Below, in pieces: positions 3,018-34,388 of a DNA stretch of 64,000 bases (positions within the stretch are counted from its first letter, which is position 1; each line of letters begins with the position of its first letter). Source of the stretch: Streptomyces sp. WMMC940 (GTDB lineage: Bacteria; Actinomycetota; Actinomycetes; Streptomycetales; Streptomycetaceae); contig NZ_JAPZBC010000001.1 of assembly GCF_027460265.1 (NCBI RefSeq), forward strand, positions 620,001 to 684,000, in the 5' to 3' direction. Under the pieces are notes generated by a model. That model had not been told where the DNA came from and made no database searches. It was given only the letters and a program-made list of their open reading frames with translations. Position numbers and translations under genes: made by a program.

Positions 3018-5823
3018 GCGAAAAAGGCGTGGATCGCCGAAGTCCCCTGGGAGTGATCACGCGCCCGGCCGGTGGAACGCCCGGGGACGGCTGGGCCGCC
3101 TGCGTTCCCCGCTGACCGTGCGCAGCCTCGCCGGCCAGGTGTTCCTCCTGCAACTGGCGGTCGTGGTGCTGGTGGTCCTCGCCGCGATGGTGGCCCTCGT
3201 CGTACAGGCGCGCCGTGACAGCATGGCGGACGCCCGGCACCGGACGCTCACCGCGGCCCAGACCTTCGCGAACTCACCGGGACTGCAGGAGGCATTGGAG
3301 GGTCCCGACCCCACCGCTTCGCTGCAGCCGAGCGCGGAGGCGGTCCGCAGGGCCGCGGGCGTCGACGCCATCATCGTCTACCGGCCGGACGGGATCACCC
3401 TCACCCACAGCGATCCGAAGCAGATCGGAAAGCACGTCATCGGCCCCTACGCGGAAGCGGCGGCGGGGAAGACGTTCACCCGGACCTTCCAGGGGGCGCT
3501 GGGGCTCTCCGTCATCTCCGCCGTCCCCGTCAAGGACACCGGCGGCTCGGTCGTCGCCATCGTCTCGTCCGTCGTCACGGTGGGCAGCGTGCAGGACCGG
3601 GTGAACCGGCAACTGCCCGTCCTGTTCGGCGTCGCGGCCGGGTCGCTCGCCCTCGCCGCGGGCGGTTCGGCGCTGGTGAGCCGTCGTCTCCGGAGACAGA
3701 CCCACGGCCTGGGACCGGCGGAGATGACCCGGATGTACGAGCATCACGACGCCGTCCTCCACGCCGTACGGGAAGGGGTGCTGATCGTCAGGGGCGACGG
3801 CCGGCTGCTGCTGGCCAACGACGAGGCCCGCCGCCTGCTGGAACTTCCGCAGGACGCGGAACGCCGCCGTGTGGGCGCGCTGGGGCTGAACGCCGACCTC
3901 GCCGCGCTGCTCACGTCCGACCGCCCCGCCACCGACGAGGTGCACCTGGCGGGTGACCGGCTCCTCGCCGTGAACAAGCGGTTCACCGCCGCCCAGGGGC
4001 CGGCGAGCAGCGTGGTGACGCTGCGGGACACCACCGAACTGCAGGCCCTTTCCGGCAGGGCCGAGACCGCCCGCCGGCGGCTGCAACTGCTCTACGACGC
4101 CGGGGTGCGGATCGGCACGACCCTGGACGTCACACGCACCGCCGAGGAACTCGCCGAAGTCGCGGTCCCCCGCTTCGCCGACATCGTCTCCGTGGAACTC
4201 CTCGACCCCGTCCTGCACGGCGACGAACCCTCCGGTGCGAGCACCGAGATGCGCCGCACCGCCGTCGTGGGCCTGGAGGGGGACCACCTCCTCTACCCGG
4301 TCGGCAGGCTGATCCGCTTCGTCCCCGCCCACCCCGCGGCCGCCGGCGCGGCCGACGGCCGGGCGGTACTGGTCGAGGACCTCAGCGCCTCCGAGGGCTG
4401 GCAGGCGCAGGACCCCGACCGCGCCCGGCGGGTCCTGGAGCACGGCATCCATTCCCTGATCGTGGTCCCGTTGCGCGCCCGGGGAGTGGTGCTCGGAGCG
4501 GCCCACTACTGGCGGGCGGACGGCTCCCCGCCGTTCGAGGAGGAGGACGTGTCCTTCGCCGAGGAACTGGGCGTCCGGGCGGCAGTGTGCATCGACAACG
4601 CCCGCCGCTACACCCGCGAGCACACCATGGCCGTCACACTGCAGCGCAGCCTGCTGCCCAGCCGGGTACCTGAGCAGTCGGCCCTGGAGGTGGCCTACCG
4701 CTATCTGCCCGCACGCGCGGGTGTGGGTGGGGACTGGTTCGACGTCATCCCGCTGTCCGGTGCCCGGGTCGCGCTGGTCGTCGGCGATGTCGTGGGACAC
4801 GGTCTCCACGCGGCGGCCACCATGGGCCGACTCCGCACCGCCGTGCACAACTTCTCCGTCCTGGACATCCCGCCGGAGGAACTGCTGGGTCGTGTGGACG
4901 ACCTGGTGGCCCAGATCGACAGCGACGAGGACGCCGCCGAAGGGGAGGGCCGGGGCATCACCGGTGCGACCTGCCTGTACGCCGTCTACGATCCCACCTC
5001 CGGGCGACTCGCGGTCGCCACCGCCGGTCATCCCGGACCGGCCGTGGTCCACCCGGGTGGGACCGTGGACTTCCCCCGGCTGCCCGTGTCCCCGCCGCTG
5101 GGCCTCGGAGCGGGGCTGCCCGGCGAGAGCGCCGAACTGACGGTGCCCGAGGGGTCCCGGCTGGTGCTCTTCACCGACGGGCTGATCGAGGACCGGGACC
5201 GCGACCTGGACGTCGGCCTGGCCGCGCTGCGCGAGGCGCTGGCCGGGCCCGTTCGGTCCCCGGAGGCCACCTGCGCCGCGGTCGTCGACGCGCTGGTCCC
5301 CGACCGGCCCCGGGACGACATCGCGCTGCTGGTGGCCCGCACCCACCGTCTCGACCCGAACCGGACCGCCGACTGGCAGGTGCCCCGCGACCCGGCGGCG
5401 GTCGCCCCCGTGCGCGCAGCCTGCGTCCGCCGGATCCGCGAGTGGGGCCTCGGGCAGCTCGACTTCGCCGCCGAACTCGTTCTCAGCGAACTCATCACCA
5501 ACGCGATCCACTACGGCTCCGAACCCATCACCGTCCGGCTCGTCCGCGACCGGGCCCTGATCTGCGAGGTCTCCGACGGCAGCAGCACCTCGCCACGCCT
5601 ACGGCGGGCCGAGGTCACCGACGAGGGCGGCCGCGGGCTCTTCCTGGTCGCCCGGTTCACCGAACGCTGGGGCACCCGCTACACGCCGACCGGCAAGGTC
5701 ATCTGGGCCGAGCTCCCCCTCCACGGCGGTGCCGGCCCGTCGGTGGAGGGTCTCGCCGAGCTCCTGCTCGACGAGGCGGAGCCGCTTTCCGGGGAAGGTG
5801 AGCAGGACGGCACGGAACCGTGA
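3001..5823 (+). CDS. Membrane sensor PP2C phosphatase: sCache, PAS, GAF, SpoIIE, HATPase
   Basis: A 940-residue signalling protein. A membrane helix (about 45-68) precedes an extracellular single-Cache domain (70-200). Its segment DGITLTHSDPKQIGKHV resembles the ligand domain of CitA/DcuS di- and tricarboxylate sensors. A second helix (205-225) follows, then PAS (245-345), GAF (365-535), a SpoIIE-type PP2C (560-780) and an RsbW-like HATPase (800-905). PP2C metal ligands are visible in GGDWFDV, VVGDVVGHG, FTDGLIE and RDDIALL. The HATPase keeps the N box (ELITNAIHY) and the DEGGRGL loop. It probably dephosphorylates a STAS antagonist and may bind a sigma factor or antagonist itself. The start is uncertain: the ATG at 3001 lies in a hairpin loop without a ribosome site. 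It is paralogous over its cytoplasmic half to the symporter fusion at 30548-34129. Confidence 0.9.
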   Translation: MHQFSGRKRRGSPKSPGSDHAPGRWNARGRLGRLRSPLTVRSLAGQVFLLQLAVVVLVVLAAMVALVVQARRDSMADARHRTLTAAQTFANSPGLQEALEGPDPTASLQPSAEAVRRAAGVDAIIVYRPDGITLTHSDPKQIGKHVIGPYAEAAAGKTFTRTFQGALGLSVISAVPVKDTGGSVVAIVSSVVTVGSVQDRVNRQLPVLFGVAAGSLALAAGGSALVSRRLRRQTHGLGPAEMTRMYEHHDAVLHAVREGVLIVRGDGRLLLANDEARRLLELPQDAERRRVGALGLNADLAALLTSDRPATDEVHLAGDRLLAVNKRFTAAQGPASSVVTLRDTTELQALSGRAETARRRLQLLYDAGVRIGTTLDVTRTAEELAEVAVPRFADIVSVELLDPVLHGDEPSGASTEMRRTAVVGLEGDHLLYPVGRLIRFVPAHPAAAGAADGRAVLVEDLSASEGWQAQDPDRARRVLEHGIHSLIVVPLRARGVVLGAAHYWRADGSPPFEEEDVSFAEELGVRAAVCIDNARRYTREHTMAVTLQRSLLPSRVPEQSALEVAYRYLPARAGVGGDWFDVIPLSGARVALVVGDVVGHGLHAAATMGRLRTAVHNFSVLDIPPEELLGRVDDLVAQIDSDEDAAEGEGRGITGATCLYAVYDPTSGRLAVATAGHPGPAVVHPGGTVDFPRLPVSPPLGLGAGLPGESAELTVPEGSRLVLFTDGLIEDRDRDLDVGLAALREALAGPVRSPEATCAAVVDALVPDRPRDDIALLVARTHRLDPNRTADWQVPRDPAAVAPVRAACVRRIREWGLGQLDFAAELVLSELITNAIHYGSEPITVRLVRDRALICEVSDGSSTSPRLRRAEVTDEGGRGLFLVARFTERWGTRYTPTGKVIWAELPLHGGAGPSVEGLAELLLDEAEPLSGEGEQDGTEP

Positions 5824-7206: not shown

Positions 7207-7560
7207 TCACTCCTCGATCGTGGCGACCGCGTCGAGCCCGGCGTGGCGCAGCGTCCGCCGGACCGTGCGCCGCGCCCCTCGGATGGTCAGCGCCGCGGGG
7301 TCCGCGCGAAGGCCGGCCGCCCGAAGGAGCGCGTACGCACACGCGAGGTCGAGGTGGGTGACCCCGCTCATCTCCACCACCCACTCGGCGGCCTCGGCCA
7401 GCGGGCTCGCGTCAAGGCGTTCTTCCAGTTCGCGCAGGGTCGCGGCCCCGATGTCCCCGGTCAGGACGACCTCTGCGCGCAGACCGTCGGCCGTCGACAC
7501 GATGCTGATCGGTCCGGCCTGCGGGTTGGTGTCTTCGGCTGCCACGGTGGACTCCTTCAC
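7207..7560 (-). CDS. STAS-domain protein lacking the phosphorylatable serine
   Basis: A 117-residue STAS-domain protein of the anti-anti-sigma (SpoIIAA/RsbV) fold. The fold is recognisable as a central strand (VVEMSGVTHLDLACAYAL) followed by helices. SpoIIAA-type antagonists carry D-S-(S/T)-G at the start of the phosphorylation helix; here the equivalent is H-L-D-L-A-C-A, with no Ser or Thr. It therefore probably cannot be switched by the usual kinase/phosphatase cycle and may act as a constitutive or decoy partner. Convergent with the solute-binding gene, it lies behind the terminator of the ctaD operon, so it needs its own short promoter or read-through. Confidence 0.7.
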   Translation of the reverse strand: MKESTVAAEDTNPQAGPISIVSTADGLRAEVVLTGDIGAATLRELEERLDASPLAEAAEWVVEMSGVTHLDLACAYALLRAAGLRADPAALTIRGARRTVRRTLRHAGLDAVATIEE

Positions 7561-26392: not shown

Positions 26393-27580
26393 ATGGGCAC
26401 CACAGCGCGGAGGCGAACCGGCGGTGCCGACGACGACGGTGCCGGCACTCTGTGGACCGCCACGCCACCGCTGTGGCTGCGCTCGCTGCCCGTCGCCCTG
26501 CTGGCCGCGCTGGTCCTGGCCCAGGGAGTCACGCCCAACCAGGTGGAGCTGGGCGCCTACTACGCGGCCGTGGCACCGCTCGCGGCCCTGGCGTACGGAG
26601 CACCGGGTACCGCCATCACCGGCGTCGCCGTGCTCGGCATCATGCTGCTCCCGCGCGTCGGAGCCGGCAGCCTGATCGCCGAGGAATTCGGGGCCGTCGC
26701 CGTGATCGCTGCGCTGAGTGTGGTGATCGCCGGGGTGCGGCAGCACTTCCGCGGCCGCCTGGAAGTGGCCGGTTCGGTCGCCGAGGCCGCCCAGCTCGCC
26801 GTGCTCACCCCGGTTGCCGACCGTGTGGGCGAGCTGCGCTGCGCCGCCCTCTACCGGGCCGCGCAGCGGGGTGCCCTGGTCGGCGGGGACCTCTACGACG
26901 TACGGCCGGGGCCCTACGGAGTACGGGCCCTGGTCGCCGACGTCCAGGGACACGGGCTCGCCGCCGTCGGCACCGTCGCGGCCCTGCTGGGAGCCTTCCG
27001 CGAAGCCGTCCTCGACCAGCCGGACCTGCAGGGGGTGGCGGCGCGGCTGGAGCGGCGGCTGACGCTCGATGCCGTGGCCGGGGCCGGGGCCGGGGCCGGC
27101 AGCGAACTGTTCGCCACCGCGTTCCTGATGGAGTTCCCTGCGGACGGCTCACACGTGCGCATCCTCAGTCAGGGTCATCCCCCGGCCCTGCTGCTGCGTG
27201 GCCGCACGGTCCTGGAGATGCGCTGCGAGCCGGGCCCGCCGCTCGGCACCGGGCTGCCGGGGCTGCCGGCGGCCAACCCCACGACGGTGCCGCTCCGGCC
27301 CGGCGACGTGATTCTCGCGTACACCGACGGTGTCACGGAGGCGCGGGACTCCTCCGGCACCTTCTACCCGCTGGACGACCGGCTCACCGCCCTGCTCGCG
27401 GAGGGCTCGGACGCCTCACCGCGGGCCGTGGTGGATGCGGTGTGGGGAGACCTGCAGCGGCGCACGGGTGCGATGGACGACGACGTGGCGCTGCTGGCGC
27501 TCGCGGTCCCCGGTGCCGCTGCCACCAGGTCGGGCGATCGAGCAGGGCCTCGACGCCCCGACCCGGGTACGCGTTCGTGA
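26393..27580 (+). CDS. Membrane PP2C (SpoIIE-type) phosphatase
   Basis: A 395-residue protein. Residues 25-115 hold three or four membrane helices without a recognisable sensor domain. The rest is a SpoIIE-type serine phosphatase with its metal-binding Asp motifs GGDLYDV, LVADVQGHG, AYTDGVTEA and DDDVALLAL. It has no HATPase or STAS domain. A low-complexity Ala-Gly stretch (AGAGAGAG) sits inside the catalytic domain. Such proteins dephosphorylate STAS antagonists and so free sigma factors. The substrate is unknown; the STAS protein in this window lacks a target Ser. It lies 150 bases after the ECF41 gene. Confidence 0.88.
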   Translation: MGTTARRRTGGADDDGAGTLWTATPPLWLRSLPVALLAALVLAQGVTPNQVELGAYYAAVAPLAALAYGAPGTAITGVAVLGIMLLPRVGAGSLIAEEFGAVAVIAALSVVIAGVRQHFRGRLEVAGSVAEAAQLAVLTPVADRVGELRCAALYRAAQRGALVGGDLYDVRPGPYGVRALVADVQGHGLAAVGTVAALLGAFREAVLDQPDLQGVAARLERRLTLDAVAGAGAGAGSELFATAFLMEFPADGSHVRILSQGHPPALLLRGRTVLEMRCEPGPPLGTGLPGLPAANPTTVPLRPGDVILAYTDGVTEARDSSGTFYPLDDRLTALLAEGSDASPRAVVDAVWGDLQRRTGAMDDDVALLALAVPGAAATRSGDRAGPRRPDPGTRS

Positions 27581-28831: not shown

Positions 28832-29807
28832 CAGCGGAAACCTTGGCTCGGGGGCGTCGATTGGCGAGAACGACACCGGCGGTGATGAGGGGCACGCCGA
28901 CCACGACGGGCAGGGTCGGTGCCTCGTCGAGGAGGGGAATGGCGAGCAGGACGACGACGACCGGGCTGAGGCTGCCGACGACGGAGCTGCGCTGCGGTCC
29001 CAGCCGCCGGATCGCGAACGCGTACAGCAGACCGGCACACAGGCCGACGCCCAGCCCCTGAACGACGAGGAACAGCACGAGGTCGCCGCCGGCCGCCCGG
29101 GCGAGGTTGGTGGGCAGGACGCCGGTCAGGACCAGGAACGAGACGACGGCGAACGACGGAAGGCACAGCAGCCCTATGGATCCGACCGGGTCGAGGTCCA
29201 CTTCGCGCAGCCCCACCGTGTAGAGCGCCCACAGGCCGCTGGCGACGAGCAGGGTGCCCGAACCCAGCAGGACCTCCGTGTCCAGAACCACGGTGTGACG
29301 GAGGACCAGCGCGATGACTCCGGCGACGATCAGCACCAGGCCGGCCGTCTGCGTGCCCCGCGGAGCACCACGCCCGCTCGCGACGAGCAGGGCGGAGACG
29401 AACAAGGGGACCATCCCGGGGACGATCGCACCGACGAAGGCCGCCGACGTCAGCGAGCCTCCGTACATCGCCGCGAGGAAGAACGGCACCCCCGCACCGC
29501 AGATGATCTTGGCGGCGGGGCCCGGGTGCACGGCGGCCAGTCGGCGTCTGCGCCGCCACAGGGCAGGCGCGAGGACGACGAGGGGCACACCGAACCGCAG
29601 GACGGCCGCGTCCGCCGGAAGCAGGGTGGAGGCACTGAGAGCGCGGGCGCTCAGCGCGAACGCGGCCCAGATCGCCACGGTCAGCAGCAAAGCCGACATG
29701 CCCACCGCCTGTGGGGAGAGTCCCCCGTTCCGCGCGGCGGCTGCCGTGGGGGCCGTGCCCCCGGCCTCCGCGGGCGCCGGCGCCGCGGCCGTGTTCGTCG
29801 CGACCAC
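28824..29807 (-). CDS. EamA/DMT-family exporter
   Basis: A 327-residue drug/metabolite transporter with ten membrane helices in two EamA repeats (about 35-165 and 180-315). The second repeat ends in the typical PVVVVLLAIPLLDEAPTLP loop. The GTG at 29807 follows GGGAGGA. Members export amino acids or metabolites. Together with the overlapping aminotransferase gene and the divergent Lrp-type regulator, an amino-acid efflux role is the best inference. Confidence 0.9.
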   Translation of the reverse strand: MVATNTAAAPAPAEAGGTAPTAAAARNGGLSPQAVGMSALLLTVAIWAAFALSARALSASTLLPADAAVLRFGVPLVVLAPALWRRRRRLAAVHPGPAAKIICGAGVPFFLAAMYGGSLTSAAFVGAIVPGMVPLFVSALLVASGRGAPRGTQTAGLVLIVAGVIALVLRHTVVLDTEVLLGSGTLLVASGLWALYTVGLREVDLDPVGSIGLLCLPSFAVVSFLVLTGVLPTNLARAAGGDLVLFLVVQGLGVGLCAGLLYAFAIRRLGPQRSSVVGSLSPVVVVLLAIPLLDEAPTLPVVVGVPLITAGVVLANRRPRAKVSADA

Positions 29808-29953
29808 CGAAGAATCCTCCCGCCCATGGACCTGTCGGGCAGCACCGTGCCACCCCTGACGACTACGGCAACGCTAGATCAATCAGCGGGGCATACGATT
29901 GCCAGTTGTGCCCTTCAGACGTAGCTTTGAGGCAGAATCTGCCAAGGAGAGCC

Positions 29954-30442
29954 ATGGACGCGGTTGATCTCAAGATTCTTCACGAGTTGCAGGCGGACGG
30001 CCGCCTGTCCAACCAGGACCTCGCGGACCGGGTACGGCTGTCGCCCTCGCCCTGCCTGCGCCGAGTGCGCCGCCTCGAGGAGTCGGGTCTGATCAGCGGC
30101 TACACCGCCATGGTGGACCAGGTCGCCTTCGGCCTCCCGATCACCGTCTTCGTACGGGTCCGTCTGGAACGTCACACCGCCGAGGCGGTCAACGTGTTCG
30201 AGCGGCACGTCGGGCTCATCGAGCACATCCAGGACTGCTACCTGATGGCGGGCAGCAGCGACTACCTGCTCAGAGTCGTCATCGAAAGCCTCGAGGCGTA
30301 CGAGATCCTGGTGCGCACGCAGATCCACGCCATCCCCGGAATCGCGTCGATCGAGTCCAGCTTCGCGTTCGGGAGCGTGAAGCAGTCCCGGGTGTACCCC
30401 CGCCCAGGTGTGCCGTCCCGCCCGGCGGCCGGTCCTCGCTGA
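29954..30442 (+). CDS. Lrp/AsnC-family transcriptional regulator
   Basis: A 162-residue Lrp/AsnC regulator. The helix-turn-helix (LKILHELQADGRLSNQDLAD, then RVRLSPSPCLRRVRRLEESG) is followed by the amino-acid-binding RAM domain (about 65-145) with LMAGSSDYLLRV. The ATG at 29954 follows a perfect AAGGAGA site. It is divergent from the exporter-aminotransferase pair and almost certainly controls it in response to an amino acid. GGCAA (about 29867) and TTGCC (about 29899) in the 146-bp gap form a weak dyad. Confidence 0.93.
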   Translation: MDAVDLKILHELQADGRLSNQDLADRVRLSPSPCLRRVRRLEESGLISGYTAMVDQVAFGLPITVFVRVRLERHTAEAVNVFERHVGLIEHIQDCYLMAGSSDYLLRVVIESLEAYEILVRTQIHAIPGIASIESSFAFGSVKQSRVYPRPGVPSRPAAGPR

Positions 30443-30547: not shown

Positions 30548-33500
30548 TCACCTCGTCCGTTCGTCGGGAATCGCCTGTTCCGCCCAGATGATCTTGCCGG
30601 TCTTCGTGTAGCGCGTGCCCCATCGCCGGGCGAGCTGAGCGACGATCAGCAGGCCTCGCCCTCCCTCGTCCGTGGTCCTGGCGTGGCGCAGGCGCGGCGA
30701 AGTGCTGCTGGCGTCGGAGACCTCGCAGATCAGGGCGCGGTCCCGGATCAGACGCAGACAGATCGGTCCGGTCGCGTGGCGGATGGCGTTGGTGACCAGT
30801 TCGCTGACGATCAGCTCCATGGTGAACACGAGATCGTCCGTTCCCCACTCGGACAGCTGCCGGCCGGCGAGGCTGCGGGCATGCGCCACGGCGACGGGGT
30901 CGGAGGGCAGGTCCCAAGTGGCGACCTGGTCGGCGCCCAGGATGCGGGTCCGGGCGAGGAGCAGCGCGGCGTCGTCGGACGGCGGACCGGTCAGCAGGGC
31001 GTCGACCGCGTGGTCGCCGGTCTCCTCCAGCGTCGGCCCGGGGACCGCGAGAGCGCTGCTCAGCCGGGAGAGGCCGACGTCGACATCCCGGTCGGGGGCC
31101 TCGATGAGGCCGTCCGTGTAGAGCCCGATCAGGCTGCCCTCGGCCAGCTCCAGTTCGACGGATTCGAAGGGCAGGGATCCGAGACCGAGCGGCGGTCCGG
31201 CGGGCAGGTCCAGGAAGTCGGCGGTGCCGTCGGGGCCGACGACAACGGGCGGGAGGTGGCCGGCCCGGGCGAGCGCACACTGCCTGCTGACCGGGTCGTA
31301 CACGGCGTACAGGCAGGTGGCCCCCATCAGCGCGGCGCCCACGCTCTCGCTCTCGGCCGTCGCCGACTCGTCACTGCCGGGCGCCTCCATGAGGCCGATG
31401 ACCAGGTCGTCCAGGTGGGCCAGCAGCTCGTCGGGGGGGAGGTCCAGGTTGGCGAGCGTGCGCACGGCCGTCCGCAGGCGCCCCATGGTGGCCGCGGAAT
31501 TGATCCCGTGGCCGACCACGTCCCCGACGACCAGTGCGACCCGGGCCCCGGAGAGCGGAATCACGTCGAACCAGTCACCACCCACGCCACTGGGCGCATG
31601 TGCCGGGAAGTACCAGGAGGCCACCTCCAGAGCGGATCCCCCGGTCAGCTCCTGCGGAAGCAGATAGCGCTGCATCGAGCGGGCCGCGGTGCGCTCGCGG
31701 GTGTAGCGGCGCGCGTTGTCGACACACACCGCGGCACGGGAGACGAGTTCCTCGGCGAGACGTGTGTCGTCCTCCTCGAAGGGACCCAGGCGCCGGGAGC
31801 GGACGAACGTCGCCGCGCCCAGGGTGATACCGCGGGCCCGCACCGGCACCACCATGATCGAGCGGAACTTGTACTCGCGGATGACGGCGCCCAGCGTCGG
31901 GTCCATGGCCACCCACGCGCTGGTGGAGGCGTCCAGGATCGGTTCCACCAGGGTCCGGCTTTCCAGCAGGCACCGGGCGACGGGGGACGAGGGCGTGCGC
32001 TGGACCGTTTCCCCCACGGCCAGTCTCGCCTCCGGAGCACCCTCCCGCACCGACTTCTGCGCCGCGCGGCGGATGACGGGGCCGGAGCCGACTGGTCCGG
32101 GGGCGGGTTCGTCACCCCTCATGACGGAGTCCAGCAGGTCGACGGCGACGAAGTCGGCGAGGGACGGCACGGCGTCGTCGGCCAGTTCCTGTGCCGTTCG
32201 GGTCACGTCCAGCGTGCTGCCGATCCGGGCACCGGCATCGCTCAGCAGGGCCAGGCGCTCCTGGGCCCGCCAGCGCTCGGTGACATTGATGATCATGTAC
32301 CAGACGCCCACGTGCCGGCCGTGGCGGTCCTTCATCCCGAAGAACGAGGCGGAGTACGCACGCTCCTGGTGGGGATCGGCGTAGCTGGGCCCGCGGAACT
32401 CGTAGTCCATCACCGGAGACCCGGTCCGCAGGACCGTCCGCATCCTTTCCTCGAACGCCTCCGCCTCCAGCTCGGGCAGCACCTCCTTGACCCGCCGTCC
32501 GAGCCGTCGTTCGAGGGGGATCAGCCGCCCCAGTACGTCGTTCACCCAGACGTACCGCAGATCCGTGTCGAGGACCGCCACGCCGACCGGTGCGTGCGCG
32601 AGGAACGGTTCGAGCCTCAGCTGGCTCACCCCGCCCCCCGGCATCCGCCAGAAGGCGCGCTTCGGCGGCCGGCCGACGAACCTGCCGAAGAACAGCGCGG
32701 AGGCCGTGGCGACCAGCACGCCCGGCACCATCTCGTAGATGCCCGAATCAAGCGGCCCCAGCAGCGGACTGATCTTCTTCCAGAAGAGCACCGTGGCCGC
32801 GCCCGACACGATTCCCGCCATGGCCCCCGCCCAGGTCATACGCGGCCAGTACAGCGAGAGGAGGACGACCGGCCCGAAGGCCGCTCCGAAGCCGGCCCAG
32901 GCGTAGGCGACGATGTTCAGCACTCCGCCGCCCTTGAGGGCGATCAGGCAGGCTACCAGGATCACCACCACCACGGCGCCGCGACCGACCCACACCAGCA
33001 CCTTGTCCGAGGCCCGCCGGCTGAGCAGGGCCCGGTAGAAGTCCTCCGTGAGAGCGACGGACGACACGAGGAGCTGGCTGTCCGCGGTCGACATGATCGC
33101 GGCCAGTACGGCGACCAGCATCACCCCGGCGATCCAGGGGTTGAGCAGTGTCTGGGTCAGGGCGATGTAGACGGTCTCCGGATTGTCCAGTGGCGTATCG
33201 AGCTGCCCGATGCCCACGAGGCCGACGAGCACGGCGCCGCCGAGGACGACGAGCACCCAGCCCGTGCCGATGCGCCGGGCCGCCGGGACGGCGAGGGCGC
33301 TGCGGATGCCCATGAAGCGGGCCAGGATGTGCGGCTGACCGAAGTAGCCGAGGCCCCAGGCGAGCAGCGAGATGATGGCGACGGCGCCGAGCGGCCCGCC
33401 GGCCGTCCACCGGCCGTCGGCATAGCCGGCCTCGGCCCCCACTTCCAGCAGGGTCGGCGTCTTCTCGACGAGGGCGTTCTCCAGCGCCCCGAAGCCCCCG

Positions 33501-34129
33501 AGCGCCCCGATCCCGATCACGGGGAGCACGAGCAGGGCGAGGAACATCAGGGTGCCCTGCATCACGTGCGTCGTGCTCACGGCGAGGAAGCCGCCGAGGC
33601 ACGAGTACACCACGATGACCAGGGCGGTCAGCGACACGGCGAGCTCGAAGTCGACGCCGAAGACCTTCTCGAACAGCAGCCCGCCGGCCACCAGGCCACT
33701 CGCGACGTAGACGGTGAAGAACACGACGGTGACCGCCGCCGAGACCATCCGGAGCATCCGGGTGCGGTCCTCGAACCTCTCCTCCAGGTAGGCCGACAGG
33801 CTCACCGCGTTACCTGCCCGCTCGGTGTAGGTGCGCAGCCTCGGCGCGACGAACAGCCAGTTGAGGTAGGTGCCGATCGCCAGCCCGACGGCGATCCAGC
33901 CGGCCCCGACGCCGGCCGCGTAGACGGCTCCGGGAAGCGCCAGGAACAGCCAGCCGGACATGTCGCTGGCACCCGCGGACAGCGCGGCGACCGGCGCGCT
34001 GAGCCTGCGGCCGCCCAGGGCGAAGTCGGCGAAGGTGCGGGTGCGGGTGTACGCCCAGACACCTACTGCGATCACGGCGACCACATAGAGGACGAACGTG
34101 GCCGTGATCGGCGGGCTCACATCGGACAT
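30548..34129 (-). CDS. PutP-type Na+/proline symporter fused to PAS-GAF-PP2C-HATPase
   Basis: A 1,193-residue fusion in one uninterrupted frame. Residues 1-480 are a complete SLC5 sodium/proline symporter very similar to E. coli PutP. It has the substrate and Na+ site segment SAGASDMSGW (51-60), GWGLGYFGQPHILARFM-like helix and LAAIMSTADSQLLVSS with Ser347-Thr348. Then come PAS (505-620), GAF (630-805), SpoIIE-type PP2C (830-1060; GGDWFDV, VVGDVVGHG, YTDGLIEA, SDDAALLL) and an RsbW-like HATPase (1075-1185; ELVTNAIRHA, DEGGRGLLIV). All catalytic and metal residues expected are present. The arrangement recalls CbrA-type symporter-kinases, with a phosphatase/anti-sigma module replacing the histidine kinase. 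ATG at 34129 follows GAGGA. The natural reading is a proline- or Na+-sensing switch for a sigma-factor pathway. Confidence 0.92.
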   Translation of the reverse strand: MSDVSPPITATFVLYVVAVIAVGVWAYTRTRTFADFALGGRRLSAPVAALSAGASDMSGWLFLALPGAVYAAGVGAGWIAVGLAIGTYLNWLFVAPRLRTYTERAGNAVSLSAYLEERFEDRTRMLRMVSAAVTVVFFTVYVASGLVAGGLLFEKVFGVDFELAVSLTALVIVVYSCLGGFLAVSTTHVMQGTLMFLALLVLPVIGIGALGGFGALENALVEKTPTLLEVGAEAGYADGRWTAGGPLGAVAIISLLAWGLGYFGQPHILARFMGIRSALAVPAARRIGTGWVLVVLGGAVLVGLVGIGQLDTPLDNPETVYIALTQTLLNPWIAGVMLVAVLAAIMSTADSQLLVSSVALTEDFYRALLSRRASDKVLVWVGRGAVVVVILVACLIALKGGGVLNIVAYAWAGFGAAFGPVVLLSLYWPRMTWAGAMAGIVSGAATVLFWKKISPLLGPLDSGIYEMVPGVLVATASALFFGRFVGRPPKRAFWRMPGGGVSQLRLEPFLAHAPVGVAVLDTDLRYVWVNDVLGRLIPLERRLGRRVKEVLPELEAEAFEERMRTVLRTGSPVMDYEFRGPSYADPHQERAYSASFFGMKDRHGRHVGVWYMIINVTERWRAQERLALLSDAGARIGSTLDVTRTAQELADDAVPSLADFVAVDLLDSVMRGDEPAPGPVGSGPVIRRAAQKSVREGAPEARLAVGETVQRTPSSPVARCLLESRTLVEPILDASTSAWVAMDPTLGAVIREYKFRSIMVVPVRARGITLGAATFVRSRRLGPFEEDDTRLAEELVSRAAVCVDNARRYTRERTAARSMQRYLLPQELTGGSALEVASWYFPAHAPSGVGGDWFDVIPLSGARVALVVGDVVGHGINSAATMGRLRTAVRTLANLDLPPDELLAHLDDLVIGLMEAPGSDESATAESESVGAALMGATCLYAVYDPVSRQCALARAGHLPPVVVGPDGTADFLDLPAGPPLGLGSLPFESVELELAEGSLIGLYTDGLIEAPDRDVDVGLSRLSSALAVPGPTLEETGDHAVDALLTGPPSDDAALLLARTRILGADQVATWDLPSDPVAVAHARSLAGRQLSEWGTDDLVFTMELIVSELVTNAIRHATGPICLRLIRDRALICEVSDASSTSPRLRHARTTDEGGRGLLIVAQLARRWGTRYTKTGKIIWAEQAIPDERTR

Positions 34130-34388
34130 CTATTCCTCGCCTGCGAGGCTGACGAGCACGGGCGCGGCACATCGGCCGGTCTGCGGCGCCTTTCGCCCTG
34201 GCAAACAAATCTACCGATTCCGAGCCGGTGAGGGCCGATCGGAGTCCTCCTCACGGGTGCCGCGACGTCGGCCCCGGCCGGTTCCACCGCGGTGGCACGG
34301 TGGACCGGGGAGCGGCGCGCGGCGGGCACGCCGGATCCTCACCCCCGGTCCCCGGAGCGACGCTCGAGCCGGAGATCGTCACCCGAGG

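Follow-up and report, generated by a model that had tools for sequence, protein, structure and literature searches.

A PutP-type symporter fused to a PP2C phosphatase and anti-sigma-type ATPase in Streptomyces: a candidate membrane transceptor

A 64,000-nucleotide stretch of the genome of Streptomyces sp. WMMC940 (positions 620,001–684,000 of NZ_JAPZBC010000001.1, assembly GCF_027460265.1; hereafter the window) contains at 30548–34129, on the minus strand, a single ATG frame for a protein of 1193 residues with the order PutP-PAS-GAF-PP2C-HATPase. We tentatively propose that this protein is a membrane transceptor, in which a PutP-type Na+/proline symporter occupies the slot of the N-terminal PAS domain of a PAS-PAS-GAF-PP2C-HATPase regulator and may be coupled to its phosphatase. 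The proposal draws on the PutP character of the front half, the selection acting on every domain, and the nature of the junction between the two halves.

Two halves joined at Trp494

The first-pass annotation of this DNA, made from the letters alone, described one uninterrupted frame of five parts and named no strand. The frame was recovered on the minus strand, to which the features below belong unless marked (+), and a Pfam search of the protein returned SSF, PAS_4, GAF, SpoIIE and HATPase_c_2 in that order and no match to HisKA. The PutP-type SLC5/SSF transporter (residues 1–493) occupies window positions 32651–34129. It is followed by the junction and linker RAFWRMPGGGVSQLRLEPFLAH (residues 491–512, 32594–32659), the PAS_4 domain (residues 511–619, 32273–32599), the GAF domain (residues 685–802, 31724–32077), the GAF-to-PP2C linker (residues 803–860, 31550–31723), the PP2C/SpoIIE phosphatase (residues 861–1061, 30947–31549; PF07228, E = 1.6e-50), and the RsbW-like HATPase_c_2 domain (residues 1074–1182, 30584–30910; PF13581, 41.8 bits against a cut-off of 27.4).

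Scans of the genus and the order gave 39 other loci, in 39 other genomes, with PutP over the model cut-off in a frame of more than 1000 residues; together with the window's own locus they form the set of 40 fused loci used throughout. On re-reading, all 40 hold the same unbroken frame (1185–1220 residues) with an identical start point, and the 39 other proteins are 74–88% identical to the window protein in the SSF part and 70–87% in the output half. The ratio of nonsynonymous to synonymous substitution rates (dN/dS, NG86) was 0.15–0.59 in the seven pairs tested, indicating purifying selection in every domain, which argues for a transceptor. The intact frames and these ratios rule out a frameshift or an assembly join at residues 480–505, where the first-pass annotation had seen the main risk; the two halves meet at about residue 494, and the frame runs through this point in the 39 other loci. 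The data support the fusion of an apparently complete PutP-type SLC5 unit to an apparently complete PP2C/anti-sigma-type unit.

The fusion is seen only in Streptomyces, in about one-tenth of the sampled genomes of the genus. When 5.8 billion proteins were searched with residues 380–900 as the query, 7996 were scored, and 116 of the best 120 carry both PF00474 and PF07228; among the matches listed, every organism-named one of the 116 is from Streptomyces, the nearest being from Streptomyces marianii (98%). In the genus sample of 199 genomes, PutP over the cut-off was found in 24, and 21 of these (WMMC940 included) have the fused form; nine further genus matches over the cut-off (L182–L190), all re-read, are stand-alone proteins of 506–611 residues. 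At the order level, PutP over the cut-off was found in none of 20 genomes from other genera. At the class level it was found in 24 of 246 genomes, 21 of them outside the genus, and none of the 21 has a fusion: 20 frames of 510–671 residues were judged by length alone, and the remaining one, a 959-residue frame (L222), is a stand-alone PutP on inspection. None of 64 matching plasmid records reached 80% query coverage.

The front half matched sodium symporters in a sequence search of the PDB. SSF (PF00474) spans residues 36–443 (E = 8.9e-89), and the PutP equivalog model TIGR02121 of NCBIfam spans residues 8–490 at 571.2 bits against a cut-off of 515.5; the score with a second, stricter PutP model, NF011948, was 453.5, under its cut-off of 955. 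The segments SAGASDMSGW and MSTADSQLL, singled out by the first-pass annotation, are both found in the translation. Escherichia coli PutP (NP_415535.1), a stand-alone protein encoded next to putA, is identical to the SSF part at 236 of 479 aligned residues (49%), and the related stand-alone PutPs are 64–76% identical. We take A53, M56, A337, S340, and T341 of E. coli PutP to be the Na2 site and D55 and Y248 to be the inner gate. D55, Y248, L64, and W405 are named as important in the relevant passages of a 2021 review (PMC7918813). The residues aligned to A53, S54, D55, M56, S57, G58, W59, Y140, W244, Y248, A337, S340, T341, and W405 of E. coli PutP are identical in all 40 fused proteins. Both the equivalog score and the identity of these residues argue for a transceptor, as does the finding that the WMMC940 genome has no other PutP over the cut-off and one proline dehydrogenase match.

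In the output half, Asp852, Asp855, Asp870, Asp1052, and Asp1053 of PP2C are invariant among 72 sequences and Asp1006 is nearly so; we take these aspartates to be metal-binding, and the first two fall just ahead of the Pfam boundary at residue 861. The N-box Asn1114 of the ATPase is also invariant. For these residues the earlier claim that all catalytic motifs are present stands, but the ATPase G1 box (residues 1138–1142) reads SDASS and not the consensus DxGxG. The best PDB match of the output half (residues 834–1121) is Rv1364c of Mycobacterium tuberculosis (3ke6), which is also the best PDB match of the PAS domain (3k3c). No other block of the protein is as well conserved as the GAF-to-PP2C linker (mean conservation 0.925 over the 40 orthologs). 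In a low-confidence AlphaFold2 model, a helix spans residues 786–823 and the predicted local distance difference test (pLDDT) score is below 50 at residues 816–852.

The junction was located by comparison with relatives that lack SSF. In four of them (P0118–P0121), homology to the fused protein begins exactly at Trp494 and extends to residue 1190 with 78–79% identity, and the DNA match of an SSF-less locus (L088) starts sharply at a single base against all 40 fused loci. Pfam returned PAS-PAS-GAF-PP2C-HATPase for P0118, P0119, and P0121, three of the closest SSF-less relatives among the matches listed. From those matches 80 named loci were kept, 6 fused and 74 (L068–L141) without SSF; 56 of the 74 have 230–305 residues ahead of the position of residue 621 (median 258, range 131–1375), where the fused proteins have 620. 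On the other side of the junction, most stand-alone PutPs terminate in GRPPRRxW plus a short tail. In the alignment this end matches GRPPKRAFW of the fused proteins, and the two groups diverge after RxW. A492, F493, W494, R495, P497, and G499 are invariant in all 40 fused proteins. By homology, a PutP that is nearly complete to its natural end is in the slot of the predicted PAS domain of the closest relatives. Since these relatives share the sequence from Trp494 onward and carry PAS in PutP's slot, the fusion looks like a sensor exchange at Trp494.

The fused SSF parts form a single clade with a support of 100/100, beside the stand-alone Streptomyces PutPs, in a tree of 71 rows, which leaves multiple origins of the fusion unsupported. 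Two trees that include the SSF-less relatives differ. In a quick FastTree (122 rows) these relatives fell within the fused clade, on starred branches that would require two changes, whereas a more careful tree of 30 rows over a longer region placed them as sister to the fused clade (100/97). Holding the SSF-less relatives with L151, as the nested alternative would have it, costs 17.65 log units, with a P value of 0.0545 in the approximately unbiased test; a history in which a gain of PutP was followed by its loss is thus disfavoured by the careful tree, short of rejection at 0.05. We prefer a single exchange, tentatively from PAS to PutP.

Possible transport–phosphatase coupling and its alternatives

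Coupling between transport and the phosphatase is plausible. PutP would import proline with Na+, and its substrate- or Na+-dependent movement would be passed from the last helix through the short linker and the PAS/GAF pair to the predicted helical linker before PP2C. The dimerisation of PP2C may then change, as proposed for RsbU, so that the phosphatase would dephosphorylate a putative STAS antagonist and free a sigma factor. The RsbW-like domain, in turn, would rephosphorylate the antagonist or hold the sigma factor. The presence of PAS in PutP's slot in the nearest relatives fits an exchange of one sensor for another. The proposal in PMC12143880 that the sensors of PPM phosphatases are exchangeable and act via a dimeric helical linker, taken together with the conservation of the GAF-to-PP2C linker, argues for a transceptor. 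So does CbrA, a histidine kinase with an N-terminal SLC5 unit, in which the SSS domain modulates autokinase kinetics according to passages of PMC7918813. With greater reserve than for the candidate as such, we suggest that it could be a functioning transceptor whose output is a Ser/Thr phosphatase: sodium-driven binding or flux of proline in a genuine PutP would directly set PP2C and a sigma partner switch, there would be no STAC domain, PutP and PAS would have been exchanged at one residue of a pre-existing regulator, and the gene would be mobile between sites together with its own promoter box (see below).

Several observations weigh against a transceptor. The AlphaFold2 model as a whole has a pLDDT of 65.1 and a predicted template modelling score of 0.40; it contains no rigid coupling path, and the junction (residues 485–513) has a pLDDT below 50. 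The Pfam scan, for which the presence of a STAC model in the library was not verified, returned no match to a STAC domain; at the low confidence of the model, only about 25 residues lie between the last helix (468–485) and PAS (residue 511). Among the neighbours, the best family besides PP2C relatives occurs in 7 of the 40 fused loci, with families taken from rough gene calling by GC content at third codon positions and with PP2C relatives merged into the gene's own cluster. STAS-like frames, sought with a profile built from 10 STAS matches of the WMMC940 genome, occur in the examined flanks of 4 of the 40; no conserved operon or STAS partner was found. Two positions of the transporter also deviate. 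The outer-gate position L64 (Leu65 in the window protein) is Phe in 12 of the 40 fused proteins, and all 40 have His at residue 188 (33566–33568), the counterpart of PutP Asp187. We take Asp187 to be the acidic residue of a partly conserved Na3 site and do not count it as defining for PutP membership; cation coupling may be changed. Of 20 stand-alone Streptomyces PutPs, 19 also have His at this position. L222, a PutP from another family, has Asp there by eye.

A strong rival is a transporter and a phosphatase that are merely co-located: PutP would import proline and serve as a membrane anchor, the phosphatase would answer PAS/GAF ligands alone, and the gain would lie in co-location and co-expression rather than allostery. 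PAS and GAF do sit between PutP and PP2C, the linker is modelled at low confidence, and in CbrA, as described in PMC7918813, neither transport nor signalling seems to depend on the parts touching each other, and transport is independent of the kinase part. Even so, we consider two independent jobs somewhat less likely than a transceptor, given that PutP is in the slot of the PAS domain of the nearest relatives and that the junction residues are invariant at a point after which stand-alone PutPs end differently.

We consider it improbable that the symporter half is a non-transporting receptor in the manner described for yeast Ssy1. The Phe at the outer gate and the His at the Asp187 position would fit such a loss of transport, but all 40 proteins keep the E. 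coli PutP residues at the aligned positions of the sodium site, the substrate site, and the inner gate, and the His is shared with stand-alone Streptomyces PutPs. Control in the reverse direction, in which the cytoplasmic module would gate PutP so that proline uptake follows the state of phosphorylation or a ligand of PAS or GAF, appears less probable still: the sequence would seem to set no direction of control, but the SSF-less relatives have this output module without a PutP, and it presumably has targets of its own. An artefact, whether a frameshift, a misassembly, or a chance long frame in GC-rich DNA, is hardly credible in view of the length-conserved frames, the domain scores well above their cut-offs, and the dN/dS values below 0.6 in all domains, even if chance long frames do exist (6 of 7 other long SSF frames, namely six picked from the genus and order scans plus L222, look like one transporter and an unrelated frame by codon composition and by eye). 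In the seventh, a 921-residue frame (L228, G048:C77:36000-45500), an ActP-like symporter with a shortened C-terminus runs, by eye, into MoaA-like sequence; it may be a deletion, an assembly fault, or a true fusion.

Upstream box and neighbourhood

The DNA ahead of the fused gene contains a promoter- or operator-like box, AATCGGTAGATTTGT (34205–34219), with a GTASATTT motif (S being C or G) common to fused loci. The motif is exact in 30 of the 40 and present with at most one mismatch in 38, within a longer motif (A/G)ATC(T/G)GTA(C/G)ATTTGT, and in 26 of the 30 exact loci the box begins 77–86 bases 5' of the start, where simulation led us to expect 0.03 loci (maximum 1 in 300 runs). GTASATTT was found in none of the upstream regions scanned for 20 stand-alone putP genes and 75 SSF-less paralogs. 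In the WMMC940 genome, the 15-base box occurs at a single site at no more than one mismatch, at the fused gene, and a 12-base box occurs, under the same mismatch limit, at 7 sites against 2 for a reversed control. Two one-mismatch copies of the latter, at C1:3206454-3206465 and C1:3207022-3207033 (-), lie less than 580 bases apart, possibly by chance. In two fused loci (L144 and L146) the box is 43 bases ahead of the start and not about 80; the intervening stretch would therefore be dispensable or deleted. The box is common to most fused copies despite differing flanks, and we read it as the fused gene's probable own promoter or operator. A SigB-type promoter was not enriched, being present upstream of 2 of the 40 fused genes against a shuffle mean of 1.5, which gives no support to the osmotic-stress role suggested by the first-pass annotation.

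Closer to the gene, a leader inverted repeat, CCTCGCAGGCGAGG (34135–34148), of conserved sequence overlaps the ribosome-binding region. In the alignment, 90% of its cells pair, without covariation, and a leader hairpin is possible. A structured leader RNA or riboswitch was rejected: there was no Rfam match, no consensus fold in RNAalifold, and no covariation.

By context, the flanking DNA of the 40 fused loci sorts into 27 groups upstream and 30 downstream. With 49 SpoIIE and 14 STAS (PF01740) matches in the WMMC940 genome, it is not possible to name a partner; about 23 kb separate the fused gene from the nearest PF01740 match, and the window includes a weak STAS match at 7216–7467 (-) of 24.7 bits. 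Another PP2C relative lies in the examined flanks of 14 of the 40 fused loci and 6 of the 20 stand-alone putP loci, and the window's own locus adds one missed by the flank search, a PF07228 match at 26918–27508 (+). At 49 matches in 7.67 Mb, chance would place a PP2C neighbour at about 4 of 40 loci. However, 14 of the 49 lie at 0.2–0.8 Mb, in the chromosome arms, and at that density some 15 of 40 loci should have such a neighbour; as PP2C genes crowd there, we claim no link.

Some individual neighbours were also recorded. Besides the PP2C relative just named, the window has a SpoIIE/PP2C match at 4759–5343 (+). In five fused loci (L145, L152, L156, L171, and L176), a separate same-strand PP2C relative, 30–39% identical, lies directly upstream, its match ending 217–344 bases before the fused start. 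The stand-alone putP loci with a PP2C relative in the flank are L193, L194, L195, L197, L199, and L200; L193, L194, and L197 have one neighbourhood by their gene lists, so that few independent events are involved, and in L200 the relative is 55% identical, convergent, and adjoins putP. In the window, a frame at 29711–30442 (+), of Lrp/AsnC type by eye, is convergent with the fused gene and ends about 100 bases from that gene's stop. The Lrp/AsnC family frequently controls amino-acid genes; this neighbour is not conserved, since only one of the 39 other fused loci, and no locus among the 20 stand-alone ones, has a relative of it (33%).

Comparison with known systems

The architecture is already in print; its function, as far as we found, is not. 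According to the first-pass annotation, known SLC5–sensor fusions end in histidine kinases, as do the Na+/proline symporter fusions of proteobacteria mentioned in a 2006 paper on signalling helices (PMC1592074). That statement is outdated. Section 5.1.1 and the legend of Figure 6 of PMC7918813 report actinobacterial SSS and HATPase_c proteins that carry GAF and PP2C_SIG, with examples from Streptomyces, and this domain set is the same as that of the fused protein. In those passages the entry is a SMART listing without PutP orthology, residues, evolution, or function, all of which except function are supplied here; what is new therefore concerns these details and not the existence of the architecture. 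A literature search, with subscription papers mostly outside its coverage, returned no recognisable experimental study of a PP2C-type SLC5 fusion.

CbrA and the SLC5/STAC histidine kinases resemble the fused protein in having an N-terminal SLC5 unit on a cytoplasmic, PAS-bearing signalling module, as described in parts of PMC7918813 and PMC13022988. They differ in the output, which is a histidine kinase in CbrA and PP2C with an RsbW-like ATPase in the fused protein, and in STAC, which is unmatched in the latter. According to PMC7918813, CbrA has not kept the sodium-site residues of PutP and appears to couple its transport to protons, so that the fused protein appears nearer to a true PutP than CbrA is. 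The signal that activates CbrA is unclear according to a 2026 preprint (PMC13022988). On whether the motion of a transporter can drive a signalling enzyme, a question still open for CbrA, the fused family may offer a cleaner test: by sequence it has an ordinary PutP, its stand-alone kin and its soluble, PAS-bearing output copies (about 79% identical) are both at hand, and the two forms differ at one residue position.

Among phosphatases, we take Rv1364c, OsaC of Streptomyces coelicolor, and RsbU, RsbP, and RsbZ to be without a transporter. Rv1364c (PAS-PP2C-anti-sigma-anti-anti-sigma), the best PDB match to the output half and PAS of the fused protein, differs in having an anti-anti-sigma domain of its own, and in OsaC and the three Rsb proteins, as is predicted for the fused protein, sensor domains (PAS and GAF in OsaC) lead through a helical linker to a PPM phosphatase (PMC12143880). 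The same source describes RsbU as switching when its flexible linker adopts a short coiled coil, by which the phosphatase domains are paired. If the fused protein works as we propose, it would be a naturally occurring example of the exchangeable sensors proposed in PMC12143880 and would widen that idea, framed for soluble sensors, to an entire membrane transporter.

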